From the NCBI GenBank assembly GCA_019690095.1, contig JADGGD010000004.1, positions 1-64,000 of the forward strand: a stretch of DNA of 64,000 nucleotides. Reading direction: 5' to 3'. Under the pieces are notes generated by a model that did not search any database, was not told where the DNA came from, and saw only the letters and a program-made list of their open reading frames with translations. Position numbers and translations under genes: made by a program. Shown here piece after piece: positions 54,880 through 59,668 of the stretch; the stretch's first letter is position 1; the number at the start of each line of letters is the position of its first letter. Source of the stretch: Chloroflexota bacterium. GTDB lineage: Bacteria > Chloroflexota > UBA6077 > FW602-bin22 > CADDYW01.

Positions 54880-56452
54880 TCTCTGACGAGCTTGATCCTG
54901 GCTCAGGGTGAGCGCTGGCGGCGTGCCTAACACATGCAAGTCGGACGACGTCGGAACCAGACCCTTCGGTCTGGTTCCAACGAAGTGGCAGACGGTTGCG
55001 TAACACGTGAGTAACCTGCCCCTAAGCCGGGGATAGCCGCCCCAAAAGGGCGGGTAATCCCCGATGTGCTCGCGGGGCGCCGGCTCCGCGAGGAAAGTCT
55101 TCTGGCGAAGGCGCTTAGGGAGGGGCTCGCGGCCTATCAGGTTGTTGGCAGGGTAACAGCCTACCAAGCCGATGACGGGTAGCTGGTCTGAGAGGATGGC
55201 CAGCCAGACCGGGACTGAGACACGGCCCGGCCTCTCGCGGGGCTGATGCCACCGGGGAGGCAGCAGTGGGGAATCGTGGGCAATCGGCGAAAGCCCGACC
55301 TCGCGACGCCGCGTGGGGGATGACGGCCTTCGGGTTGTAAACCCCTTTTGGTCGGGAGGAGGAAGGACAGTACCGACCGAAGAAGCCCCGGCTAACTACG
55401 TGCCAGCAGCAGCGGCGATACGTAGGGGGCGAGCGCTACCCGGACTCACTGGGCGTAAAGAGCGTGCAGGCGGCGGTGGCCGCCGGCGGTGAAAGCCACG
55501 GGCCTAACCCGTGGAGCGCCGCCGAGACCCCACCGCTCGAGGGCGGGAGAGGAAGGCGGAACTCCCGGAGGAGCAGTGAAATGCGCTGATCTCGGGAAGA
55601 ACGCCAGTGGCGAAGGCGGCCTTCTGGCCCGCCCCTGACGTCGAGACGCGAAGGCACGGGGAGCAAACCGGATTTGCTACCCGGGTAGTCCGTGCAGTCA
55701 ACGATGGACACTTGCCGCTGGCGGCCCGGACGGCCGTCGGTGGCGGAGCTAACGCGTTAAGTGTCCCGCCTGGATACTACGGCCGCAAGGCTAAAACCCA
55801 AAGGACTTGGCGTGGGTCCGCACAAGCGGCGGCGCGTGTGGTTTAATCCGATCCAGAACGTAGAACCTTACCAGGGCTTGACGTATCGTCCGTAGGCCCC
55901 GAAAGGGGTCCGATCGGGGTCTGGGCGGCAGTGGACTGCTGTCCCAGACCCCGGCGGCGAGACAGGTGCTGCACGGCTGTCGTCAGCTCGTGCCGTGAGG
56001 TGTTGGGTCCACTCCCAGAACGGGCGAGACCCCTGTCGCCAGTTGCCGGGATCCCGGCTCTCTGGCGAGACTGCCCCCGCAAGGGGGAGGAAGGAGAGGA
56101 TGACGTCCAGTCGGCGTGGCCCGGATGCCCTGGGCCACTCCCACGCGACAGTGGGCAGGACAGAGGGCCGCCAACCCGCAAGGGGGAGCTATCCCGGAAA
56201 CCTGCCCGTGGTTCGGATCGCGGTCTGCAACCCGACCGCGTGAAGCCGGAGCCGCTAGTAACCGCCGGTCAGCACACGGCGGTGAATACGTTCTCGGGCC
56301 CCACACAACTCGTCCGTCACGTCCGGAGTGCTTCCCCTGCCCGAAGGCGGTGACCTGCAGAAATGCAACGCCGCCGAGGGTGGGGGCAGGCCATCCGGAT
56401 GATGCCGTAGCACGGTAGCCGTACGGGAACGTGCGGCTGACGCAAATGCTGC
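54880..56452 (+). rRNA. rrs: 16S rRNA, highly divergent in functional centres
   Basis: About 1.57 kb. Clear landmarks: CTTGATCCTGGCTCAG at the start, TGCCAGCAGC, GGGCGTAAAG, CGCACAAGCGG, GTGCTGCACGGCTGTCGTC and GTACGGGAACGTGCGG at the end. Positions follow E. coli numbering by eye. Usually invariant sites that differ: C526A, U531C, A532G, A790U, A792C, A919C, G926U, C1399U, C1402U, A1493U, A1500G and A1503C. The CCUCC anti-Shine-Dalgarno tail is absent and the hairpin at 339-350 is 16 bases longer. Several changes pair correctly: 923/1393, 1402/1500 and the helix-45 swap. Not a normal translating 16S, yet not randomly decayed. Ends are estimates. Confidence 0.9.
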
Positions 56453-56687
56453 GGGGCGGGTCAGCCGAGTATGGCACTACCAGGCCCCGCTACCTTTTCC
56501 AGATGCTGCGGGCCGCCCCGTTGGGTGGCCTGCCCCGCGTGTGTCCGATCCTCTCTCGTCGCGGTGCCCTGGTCGGACGCCACGGTGCCCGACCAGTGTA
56601 CCTTACCAACGCACGGTGATCGCGGGCTCGTGATCGCCGCCATCGGTCCACAGGGCCAGGGCGGTCGTCACGAGCACGAGGACAGGC
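56453..56687 (+). other. 16S-23S spacer without tRNA
   Basis: 235 bases holding the downstream arm of the 16S processing stem (56546-56569) and the upstream arm of the 23S stem (56609-56619, ACGCACGGTGA). No tRNA-Ile or tRNA-Ala is present; no GTTCGA-type T-loop pairs with a tRNA cloverleaf. Confidence 0.75.
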
Positions 56688-59668
56688 GGTGAAGCGACGT
56701 CAAGGGCACGTGGTGGACGCCTCGGCGCGGCGGGCCGATGAAGGACGCGGCCAGGCGGCGATACACCCCGGGGAGCGGCGGGCACGCAGTGATCCGGGGG
56801 TGTCCGAATGGGGAAACCCGTCCGGTGGCTAACCACCGGACGCCCGGCGGGGACCCCACTCCGCCGGGCGGGAACCGGGCGAACTGGACCATCTCAGTAG
56901 CCCGTGGAGAAGAAATCAACCGAGATTCCCCCAGTAGCGGCGAGCGAACGGGGAGCAGCCCAGAGCCATCCGGCCGACGAGCCCGCGGGCCCATGCCGGA
57001 TGGAAGTTGGAAGCACCGGCCGGTCGGGCCGCGGCCTGACCAGGAAGGGACCCAGATGCGAGACCCCAGGCGAAGCGCTCTGGGACGAGCCGCCGGAGAC
57101 GGTGACAGCCCGGTAGTCGACGGGGTCGCGCGCTTCCGCCGGTGGCTTGAGTACCACGGGACACGAGGAACCCTGTGGGAAGCCGGGGGGACCACCCTCC
57201 AAGGCTAAATACCCGCCCGACCGATAGCGCAGGAGTACCGTGAGGGAACGGTGAAAAGAACCCCGGAAGGGGAGTGAAAGAGAGCCCGAAACCACGTGCT
57301 CACAGACCGTCAGAGTCCTGCCCCGCGGGGGCGGGATGATGGCGCGCATCGTGGATTATGAGCCGGCGAGTTACGCGGCGCGGCACGGTTAAGTCCTTGC
57401 GGGACGGAGCCACAGCGAAAGCGAGTCCGAACAGGGCGCTGGTCGCACCGCGTAGACCCGAAACCGGGTGAGCTACCCATGGCCAGGGTGAAGCCCCGCG
57501 AAAGCGGGGGGGAGGCCCGAACCGGTGTCCGATGCAAAGGGCTCGGAGGAGCCGTGGGTAGGGGTAAAAAGCCAAACGAACCCGGAGATAGCTGGTTCTC
57601 CCCGAAATGCATTGACGCGCAGCCTCGGAGGCTCGGATCCGGGGGTAAAGTCACTGGAAGGGCCAGGGGCGCCAGCGCGCTCCCAACCCATCCAAACTCT
57701 GAAGCCCGGATCCCGCAACTCCGGGAGTGAGACGGTGGGGGTCAAGCTCCATCGTCGAGAGGGAAACAGCCCAGACCACCGGCTAACGGCCCCGAAGTCC
57801 GGGCCCAGTGTCGCCGAGAAAGGCGGTGGGGCCGCGGAGACAGCCAGGAGGTGGGCTCTCAGTAGTCACCCTCCAAGGAGTGTGTCACAACTCACTGGTC
57901 GAGCGGTCCTGCGCCCACAATGGAGCGGGGCTAAGCCCGGCGCCGAAGCCGTGGACGCCGCGCCTGGGCGCGGCGTGGTAGGGGAGCGTTGGGAGGACGG
58001 TGAAGGCTGACCCGCGAGGGCAGCCGGAGCGACCCCAAGTGCGAATGCCGGCACGAGTAGCGTCGAACCCCGGTGAGAAGCCGGGGCACCGCAAGCCGAA
58101 GGTTTCCGACGCATCGTACATCCGCGTCGGGTGAGGCGGTCCTAAGTCGAGGCCGAAAGGCGTAGGCGATGGGGAAGCCGGTTAATAGTCCGGCCCCACC
58201 CGCGGCGGACTGCCCCGAGGGGACGCCGGTCGGCGGCCGTAGCGCAGCGCTGGACCTGCTGCGTCAGGGTCGCCGGCCGGCCACGAAAAGCCTCGCGGCG
58301 CGCGCCGCGGGTGTCCGTACCGCAAACCGCCACTGGTCGGCGAGGATTACTGTCCTCAGGTGATCGGGAGAACCCTCGCTAAGGAACTCGGCAAATCGAG
58401 CCCGTAACCTCGGGAGAAGGGCTGCCCCGGCCGTGATGGCCGGGGCCGCAGAGAAGAGGCCCGGGCGGCTGTTTCCTAAAAACACCGGCCCCTGCAGAAG
58501 GCGGAAGCCGACGTATAGGGACCGAGGCCTGCCCAGCACCGGGACCTAAGGGGAGACGTACGGGCCCTGTCCGGCGCCGAACTGAACCCCCGGTTAGCGG
58601 CGGCCGTAATGGTGACGGCCAGAATGTAGCGAAACTCCTTGGCGGCTAAATACCGCCGTGCTCGAATGGCGTGACGACCCGGGCACTGTCTCAGCGAGGG
58701 ACCCGGCGAAACTGATGTGTGCGCGAAAGGGCGCACGACCCGCGACAGGACACCAAGATCCCGTGGAGCTTTACTGCAGCCTGGTATTGGGCCGCCCCGG
58801 CGCGCAGTCGCCGATCGGCCCCCGGGTGAAGCGTTCGGTTGGAGGCCGCGAACTCCTGGCGAGACAGGCCAGGAGGGAGCCGTCAGACAACCCAACCCGG
58901 GGGCCGGCCCTGACCCGGCCTTAGGAGTACGAGGCCGGGGACCATGCCAGGTGGGCAGTTTGACTGGTTCGGTGTCCTCCTGAAGGGCAACGGAGGAGCC
59001 CAAAGGTTCCCTCAGCACGGATGGAAATCGTGCGTGGAGCGCAAGGGCAGGAAGGGAGCTCGACTGGCAGGCCCACGAGCCGAGCAGAGACGAAAGTCGG
59101 GCTTAGTGAGACCGCGGCCCCGCGTGGGAGGGCCGTGGGAGCAACGGATAAAAGCTCCCCGGGGATGAAGGGCCAATCCCGCCCGAGAGACCCCATCGAC
59201 GGCGGGGCTTGGTACCTCGATGCCGGCTCGCCGCATCCTGGGGCTGAAGCAGGTCCCAAGGGTTGGGCTGTTCGCCCATCAAAGCGGCACGTGAGCTGGG
59301 CGTAGACCGACGTGAGTCAGATCGATCGCTATCCGTCGCGGGCGTCCGACACTTGCGGGAGGCTGTCCCTACGTCCCAAGGCGCCGGCTGATCTGGGCCA
59401 GCGTCGTTCGGGACGGGGCAGGGCCGTGTGACCCTGCCCGTACGCAAGGAACGGGATGGACGGACCGCTGGCGTGCCAGCTGTCCCGCCCGGGGCATCGC
59501 TGGGTGACCAGGTCCGGAAGGGATAAGCGCTGACAGCATCTAAGTGCGAAGCCCGTCCCAAGATGAGGTGTCGTCGAGGCCGCAGGGAGACGACCTGCTT
59601 GATAGGCGGGACGTGGACACGGGGTAACCCGCGGAGCGAACCCGTCCTAATGGCCAAAGCGCTTCACC
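56688..59668 (+). rRNA. rrl: 23S rRNA, highly divergent in functional centres
   Basis: About 2.98 kb. Helix 1 closes 56688-56696 with 59660-59668 (9 bp). Domains II, IV and V are readily aligned (GGAGATAGCTGGTTCTCC, CGTAACCTCGGGAGAAGG, CTTTACTGCAGCCTGG). Usually invariant sites that differ: GTPase-centre loops (57851-57890), H69 loop (58605-58614), G2057C, A2058C, C2063U, G2252U, G2253U, A2450G, C2452A, U2506C, U2584C, U2585G and C2611G. The sarcin-ricin loop AGUACGAGAGG is absent from domain VI. The A-loop CUGUUCG is intact. Pairs 2063/2450 and 2057/2611 changed together. No 5S gene follows. Confidence 0.9.

Follow-up and report, generated by a model that had tools for sequence, protein, structure and literature searches.

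A divergent 16S-23S ribosomal RNA operon in a family of Chloroflexota keeps the rRNA scaffold and alters its functional centres

Contig JADGGD010000004.1 (65,528 bases; contig C16 of the 403-contig metagenome bin GCA_019690095.1 of a Chloroflexota bacterium, here bin G000) carries a divergent 16S-23S ribosomal RNA (rRNA) operon at 54880-59670. Positions are those of the window, the stretch of 64,000 nucleotides (nt) that comprises bases 1-64000 of the contig. The operon shows full-length homology to both 16S and 23S rRNA (Rfam models), and its gene lengths are near normal, as a preliminary description of this DNA had held, though not identical to those of standard copies. Functional centres (Table 1) are numbered as in Escherichia coli, from alignment to K-12 rrsH and rrlH, and by that alignment all nine of the centres previously named as altered are changed in the window copy. 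Further changes in the peptidyl-transferase centre are A2058C, U2506C, U2584C, U2585G and deletion of A2439, while G530, A1492, A1408, C1054, A2451 and A2602 are kept. The broader statement that nearly every invariant place has been rewritten is right for the named centres and wrong for the molecules overall, since the window copy differs at 66 of 666 invariant columns of the small-subunit (SSU) rRNA and 139 of 1362 of the large-subunit (LSU) rRNA. The insert in the sarcin-ricin loop folds into hairpins whose stability is not beyond that of shuffled sequences (z -1.48), and it is absent from the two complete relatives described below.

Table 1. Features of the divergent operon in window coordinates; base changes are from alignment
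Feature	Position	Strand	Details
boxA-like antitermination motif CCTTACCA, leader	54840-54847	+	40 nt upstream of 16S; from letters and position
Possible 16S processing stem, 5' arm	54843-54879	+	gapped duplex with 56523-56567
Divergent 16S rRNA gene	54880-56452	+	1573 nt; RF00177, 1193.5 bits, model 1-1533 (full)
530 loop	55400-55425	+	C526A, U531C, A532G; G530 kept
790 loop	55670-55684	+	A790U, A792C
Decoding region 5' strand, about 1391-1408	56299-56319	+	rewritten: 1391-1393 and 1397-1399 changed, C1402U
Decoding region 3' strand and helix 45	56401-56439	+	A1493U, U1495C, A1500G, A1503C; helix 45 GGAA loop kept
16S 3' tail without anti-Shine-Dalgarno	56440-56452	+	no CCTCC
Possible 16S processing stem, 3' arm (spacer)	56523-56567	+	gapped duplex with 54843-54879
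Second boxA-like motif CCTTACCAA, spacer before 23S	56601-56609	+	from letters and position
23S processing stem, 5' arm	56609-56626	+	ungapped test, 4/200 shuffles as good
Divergent 23S rRNA gene	56688-59670	+	2983 nt; RF02541, 1947.3 bits, model 1-2925 (full)
GTPase-associated centre (L11 site)	57838-57900	+	U1061G, A1067U, G1068C, A1095C
Helix 69, loop altered	58601-58628	+	C1914U, U1915G, A1916G, A1918G
P loop	58962-58974	+	G2252U, G2253U
Part of peptidyl-transferase ring	59160-59172	+	A2450G, C2452A, A2453G
68-nt insert in sarcin-ricin loop	59372-59439	+	between A2654 and G2655 equivalents
Remaining sarcin-ricin loop	59440-59458	+	A2660C, G2661A; GAGA to GCAA, GNRA pattern kept
23S processing stem, 3' arm	59683-59700	+	ungapped test

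A 16S model search of 61 genomes found a match in 23 and the divergent type in four, which stand for four genera of one family of uncultured bacteria (f1, the family of the window): bins G000, G001 and G002, where the operon lies inside contigs of 65.5, 36.9 and 32.4 kb, and bin G003, where half a gene stands at the end of a 23.9-kb contig. The divergent 16S genes form a single clade (100/100) on a stem of 0.36, with 82-87% mutual identity and 73-77% identity to the G000:C20 and G002 standard copies; the divergent 23S genes of three genomes likewise form a clade (100/100; 84-86% identity). The G002 standard copy comes out as sister to the 16S clade, at weak support (79/86). Family f1 is itself coherent by elongation factor G (EF-G; 100/100), the G002 protein being 85.8-89.6% identical to the other three, and one window protein is 79% identical to its counterpart in G002, 74% in G003 and 62% in G001 (next best 61%), so the window contig belongs to f1. 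The divergent decoding-region pattern, allowing up to two mismatches, matched three genomes out of 400 in the phylum, each of them f1 (the cut G003 gene could not match), and the exact pattern occurs in two records among 84,980 species genomes, a set from which the window's own record may be absent; the viral_contigs collection gave 0 matches. When 151 genomes from the phylum were surveyed, with two candidates scored per genome and G002 and G003 not drawn, there were 61 full-model-span 16S matches, 58 of them at 1349-1580 bits by manual count of the listing; the three low scorers are two divergent f1 copies and a 1244-nt copy from another family. Two full-span copies occur in six survey genomes, with paired scores differing by at most 5.4 bits. 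Elsewhere in the Chloroflexota, 16S genes of odd length were seen at G137:C26:3314-5090 (1777 nt) and G135:C3:476547-477790 (1244 nt).

Functional centres are SPECIFICALLY altered in the three divergent copies, relative to the rest of the same molecules. The list of functional sites was drawn up from general background. The half gene L027 was left out of three-way counts, the partial genes L025 and L026 out of invariant counts, and L021 (1402 nt) out of the functional-invariant, spacer and flank, and region-length comparisons; L023, L024 and L029-L031 were left unaligned. Changed functional invariants number 27-28 of 90 in the SSU (30-31%) and 46-61 of 213-215 in the LSU (21-28%), and the remaining invariants changed number 49-57 of 626 (SSU) and 81-93 of 1140-1141 (LSU), or 7-9%, which gives odds ratios of 3.1-5.3 (p 3e-7 to 1e-16, for sites that are not fully independent). 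When 24 standard rRNAs (17 16S and 7 23S) were left out singly, and the positions invariant among the remaining standard sequences counted, only 0-3.2% of functional positions were changed; functional change was always below change elsewhere for the left-out 23S and mixed for the left-out 16S. Outside functional sites the distance of the divergent copies from the standard set is about that of E. coli (6.3% SSU, 12.3% LSU). E. coli, when left out, differs at 167 of the 1542 LSU columns that do not vary among the other six sequences, a proportion that matches the divergent copies, so the total of LSU change is not odd; its placement is.

Many of the altered states recur. The three 16S genes with a 3' end have in common A1493U, U1495C, A1500G, G926U, a changed G966 and altered 1391-1393 and 1397-1399, and all three ends are without CCTCC (the G003 gene is cut), a motif that the 18 standard ends shown all have, that of E. 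coli among them. Common to the three 23S genes are C1914U, U1915G, A1916G, A1918G, A1960C, A2058C, G2253U, loss of A2439, C2452A, A2453G, U2506C, U2584C, a changed A2600 and G2661A, with U2585G in two of three. Kept throughout are A1492, A1408, C1054, A1518, A1519, A2451, G2553 and A2602. Other places vary among the relatives: the P loop reads GGTT, GGGT or GAGT where the standard is GGGG, the sarcin-ricin loop GCAA or GGAA where the standard is GAGA, and G002 has a longer, unrelated-looking stretch in place of its GTPase centre. The 23S region at E. coli 1501-1600 is 40 nt long in the three divergent copies and 92 nt in the G002 standard copy; the shortening is common to all three and may be diagnostic.

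The scaffold presents the opposite picture. Rfam consensus structures (462 SSU and 815 LSU pairs) were rebuilt and projected onto the alignments. The helices, previously described as intact, are so: 93.7% of 459 SSU and 94.1% of 800 LSU model pairs are standard in the window copy (figures favoured by anchoring on that copy), with 90.5-92.7% of the same pairs standard in the other divergent copies and 87.6-91.5% in the standard copies shown. Between divergent copies, 22, 25 and 14 SSU pairs have changed on both sides and still pair, against null values of 3.6, 3.5 and 1.4; for the LSU the counts are 42, 52 and 36 against 4.9, 5.2 and 3.7. None of 5000 permutations reached the observed compensation in any comparison, which bears out the preliminary claim of compensating pairs beyond what neutral decay would leave. 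By this permutation test the divergent copies do not show the uncompensated, structure-blind substitution of rRNA pseudogenes, and paired states absent from the 20 SSU and 7 LSU standard copies compared occur at 81 SSU and 148 LSU pairs. Natural selection has kept the folding of the divergent rRNA. The constraint is a little weaker than that on working rRNA, as 0.73-0.83 of changed pairs are still intact between divergent relatives versus 0.84-0.91 in standard comparisons.

Signals for transcription and processing are present in part. The leader motif CCTTACCA, which we take to be boxA from its letters and position, stands 40, 41 and 41 nt upstream of 16S in the three complete divergent operons, and it also precedes 23S in all three. 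The standard operon of G002 has CCTTACCA 105 nt upstream of 16S and CGTTACCA before 23S; the boxA-like pattern had no match in the standard operons G000:C20 and G011, and the motif is occasionally present elsewhere on the divergent-operon contigs. For the RNase III-type processing stems, taken as normal in the preliminary description, the outcome differs by gene. The 23S stem stands, its complementarity being equalled by 4, 0 and 0 of 200 shuffles in G000, G001 and G002, with letters in the window copy unlike those of the other two. The 16S stem is statistically weak in the window copy: the gapped duplex has -45.3 kcal/mol against a lowest value of -44.3 in 60 shuffles, and this narrower gapped test, chosen after the letters had been seen, puts the duplex marginally past the lowest of 60 shuffles in G000 and G001 and clearly past it in G002. 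An ungapped test gave 67, 96 and 79 of 200 shuffles equal or better in the three divergent operons, and in a whole-flank duplex-energy test their 16S-stem energies were no better than shuffles. Neither 5S nor tRNA genes were found with the three complete divergent operons; the spacer of the standard G002 operon holds Ile and Ala tRNAs. Spacers and flanks of the divergent operons are 0.38-0.57 identical, against 0.38-0.46 for shuffled spacers (one spacer shuffle per operon pair), the top values being those of G001 with G002.

The preliminary description also expected a standard 16S elsewhere, and for the family this is so. Bin G002 holds both operon types, its two 16S genes being 75% identical, and the standard operon stands close to one end of a 217-kb contig. 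The FabF encoded on that contig has its best matches in G000 (86%) and G001 (80%), then in G004 of another family (77%), with no close match in G003. For the window's own bin the expectation is less secure: its standard-type pieces, C20 (L054) and C100 (L003), are on contigs of 4.9 and 3.5 kb and group outside f1, the C100 23S having E. coli as its tree partner (83/94) and the C20 16S grouping with other families of the class, and both may be mis-binned. In G001 and G003 the 16S model search found only the divergent 16S. A third 23S-like contig, G002:C233 (L056), has about 780 extra bases inside model positions 1302-2043, possibly an intron, or the contig a foreign copy.

Shine-Dalgarno-like motifs on the divergent contigs precede 51 of 558 candidate starts versus 65 of 1989 interior ones (p 5.5e-8), and the reverse-complement control gives 17 of 558 candidate starts. 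The excess is absent at five genes of the G002 standard-operon stretch (1/33 vs 8/158) and not significant for the G003 stretch alone (2/68 vs 2/186). The divergent 16S is unable to pair with the sites enriched at the adjacent genes. One S12 and one L11 gene were found in each of the four genomes and no second copy of either, these two being the ribosomal proteins tested. S12 keeps PKKPNSA in all four (the G000 copy is cut by the contig end), and f1 EF-G is 67.9-71.8% identical to EF-G of other families of the order, so neither protein looks remodelled. The second decoding loop of S12 is RVKDLPG in the G001 and G003 proteins and RVPDLPG in those of G000 (C111, L091) and G002 (C8, L093). The six S12 sequences shown from outside the family share with G001 and G003 the K of GGRVKDLPG, a residue in contact with the decoding region.

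We read the operon as an old, f1-specific paralogue of the 16S-23S operon whose RNAs form non-translating particles that store or titrate proteins or factors, and we give this reading an even chance. It starts from direct observations: the homology, the kept helices with their compensation, the boxA-like motifs, the 23S stem, the altered centres, the presence in four genera, and both operons in one bin. The operon would be transcribed with rRNA-type antitermination (boxA), and its RNAs would be cut out at the flanking stems, fold like rRNA and bind ribosomal proteins to give subunit-like particles. Such particles would carry out no ordinary decoding or peptide transfer, because their mRNA, tRNA, factor and catalytic sites would have been released or selected away from the normal state, and the cell would rely on the standard ribosome for its proteins. 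In the data, two kinds of constraint that are usually joined in rRNA come apart, folding and processing being kept while contacts to mRNA, tRNA, factors and the catalytic site are not. The particle would most likely store or titrate ribosomal proteins or assembly factors, perhaps in dormancy, though such a role is a guess.

Several points weigh against this reading. Two of the three divergent operons have a weak 16S stem, and no sigma-70-type promoter was recognised for the divergent operon. Changed pairs are broken in 17-27% of cases between relatives versus 9-16% in the standard comparisons made, and 31 SSU and 68 LSU pairs are in a novel unpaired state. Changed invariants are the same in all three relatives at 27 SSU and 72 LSU positions, and shared identical changes are what a new function under constraint could give; several key bases are also kept within the altered centres. 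The sample is four metagenome bins with 5-9% estimated contamination, three of which have no securely placed standard operon, and we infer expression, particle assembly, absence of translation and role from the sequence. That the changes are incompatible with ordinary translation rests on PMC5270523 and PMC4289901 and on general background.

Of the options offered in the preliminary description, structural selection or a non-decoding particle is favoured and a translating specialised ribosome disfavoured, with no particular role shown. We regard as unlikely a specialised translating ribosome whose decoding site, P loop and factor sites are rewritten, serving perhaps messages that lack Shine-Dalgarno sites or cells whose standard ribosome is blocked by an antibiotic. 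It would account for the intact scaffold, for the keeping of A2451, G2553, A2602, A1492, C1054 and the GGAA loop of helix 45, and for several new states on which the three relatives agree, among them A1493U, U1495C, C2452A, U2506C and most of the helix 69 loop. A2058C, in all three, and A1067U, in two of three, are at antibiotic-contact sites and count in its favour as well. Single-group changes at A1492 and A1493 are tolerated in reconstituted subunits in vitro, according to PMC5270523. The same source, however, gives G530, A1492 and A1493 as essential for viability, and A1493U is present in all three copies. PMC4289901 classes G530U, A1492C, A2451G and U2585A as ribosome-inactivating and reports that ribosomes with A1960G were degraded; at these last two positions the divergent copies have U2585G in two of three relatives and A1960C in all three. 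Two of the three relatives carry a change at G2251 or G2252, G002 has another stretch in place of its GTPase centre, the sarcin-ricin loop of the window copy is interrupted, and none of the four genomes has a second S12 or L11. A translating ribosome is disfavoured because essential bases are changed and because the P loop, GTPase centre and sarcin-ricin loop differ between relatives.

An old, non-functional copy on its way to loss, its structure lingering through recency or through patchy gene conversion from the standard operon, seems to us quite improbable. More broken pairs than in standard comparisons, inserts in conserved places and the lack of 5S and tRNA genes are what such decay would leave, and the G002 standard copy is as close as the sister copy in 6 of 48 SSU and 5 of 92 LSU comparison windows. 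Yet the operon is no recent pseudogene: it persists across four genera while its flanks have diverged to near-random similarity, and compensation within the clade is strong, including the novel paired states counted above. Gene conversion was considered and is unsupported, the divergent copy of G002 not being unusually like the standard copy of that bin: lone differences of G002 match its standard copy at 13 of 61 SSU and 28 of 117 LSU positions, versus 19 of 110 and 21 of 93 (SSU) and 64 of 198 and 36 of 169 (LSU) for the other two.

It is very improbable that the divergent operon is the sole rRNA of the lineage, working for the whole cell, with the standard copies as contamination. The finding of divergent 16S only in G001 and G003, and the G000 standard pieces on contigs of less than 5 kb that group outside f1, would suit it; the 217-kb G002 contig with its f1-like FabF, the enriched Shine-Dalgarno-like motifs beside a 16S without the anti-Shine-Dalgarno, and the unremodelled S12 and EF-G speak against it. 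An artefact of sequencing, assembly or binning is scarcely credible and largely refuted, for although all four genomes are metagenome bins, separate assemblies agree (incl. JAJPIK010000059.1 and CADDYW010000042.1), the operon is embedded in the three long contigs listed above, the window protein is nearest to f1 members, and errors would not be compensated; assembly error and random substitution, two of the refutations proposed in advance, were both looked at, and with relatives in separate assemblies and compensated pairs neither held.

Few letters in biology are held to be as fixed as the bases of the decoding site, P loop, peptidyl-transferase centre and sarcin-ricin loop. Mitochondrial rRNAs are strongly derived and without an anti-Shine-Dalgarno, and in this the f1 divergent rRNA is like them; they reduce the scaffold and keep the core, and the f1 divergent rRNA is the reverse, with scaffold kept and core changed. 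To rRNA pseudogenes the likeness is the loss of bases needed for translation, and the difference is that a pseudogene would not be expected to retain compensating pairs, boxA-like motifs and a processing stem from one genus to the next. A second type of rRNA is likewise kept in the genome in the divergent operons of Scytonema hyalinum, Haloarcula marismortui (rrnB) and Vibrio vulnificus (rrnI). Scytonema shows a conserved high 16S divergence of 7.3-9.0% (PMC6002687), unlike the 75% identity of the two 16S genes of G002 with their altered functional centres, and the I-ribosomes of Vibrio translate (PMC9586635). The same paper describes stage-specific rRNA types in Plasmodium, two in one organism. 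Here the likeness is to bin G002, with its two rRNA types. Both Plasmodium types work in translation with the universal catalytic and decoding bases intact, whereas the f1 divergent rRNA has altered functional centres. No counterpart of the f1 operon was found in the open literature, a scope that leaves out most subscription papers and all preprints.

A bolder proposal, which we hold as possible and only tentatively, is that f1 has kept for its lifetime as a family a second kind of ribosome or a ribosome-derived machine, its subunits built from these RNAs and at work in living cells, following other rules for mRNA, tRNA and peptide chemistry, or performing a task other than translation. A kept rRNA in which scaffold and function are apart would be a natural experiment, separating the parts needed for folding and assembly from those needed for translation. 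It could also show ribosome-like particles put to some use beyond translation. Surveys based on 16S could misread such genes as deep unknown lineages.

Surroundings of the operons differ. A single shared genomic site was considered and rejected, as window open reading frames (ORFs) have no close match outside the rRNA on the contigs around the operons of G001 and G002 or in the first 15 kb of the G003 contig; two weak matches remain (30-32% identity, G002 contig). A Pfam scan that took in 20 of the 42 window ORFs, and left the plasmid collection aside, found no mobility families. The contig of the G002 divergent operon (G002:C42) carries a cobalamin riboswitch at L050 1439-1584, and the window encodes at 28-2097, on the minus strand, a protein with nitrous-oxide-reductase propeller and cupredoxin domains (Pfam).

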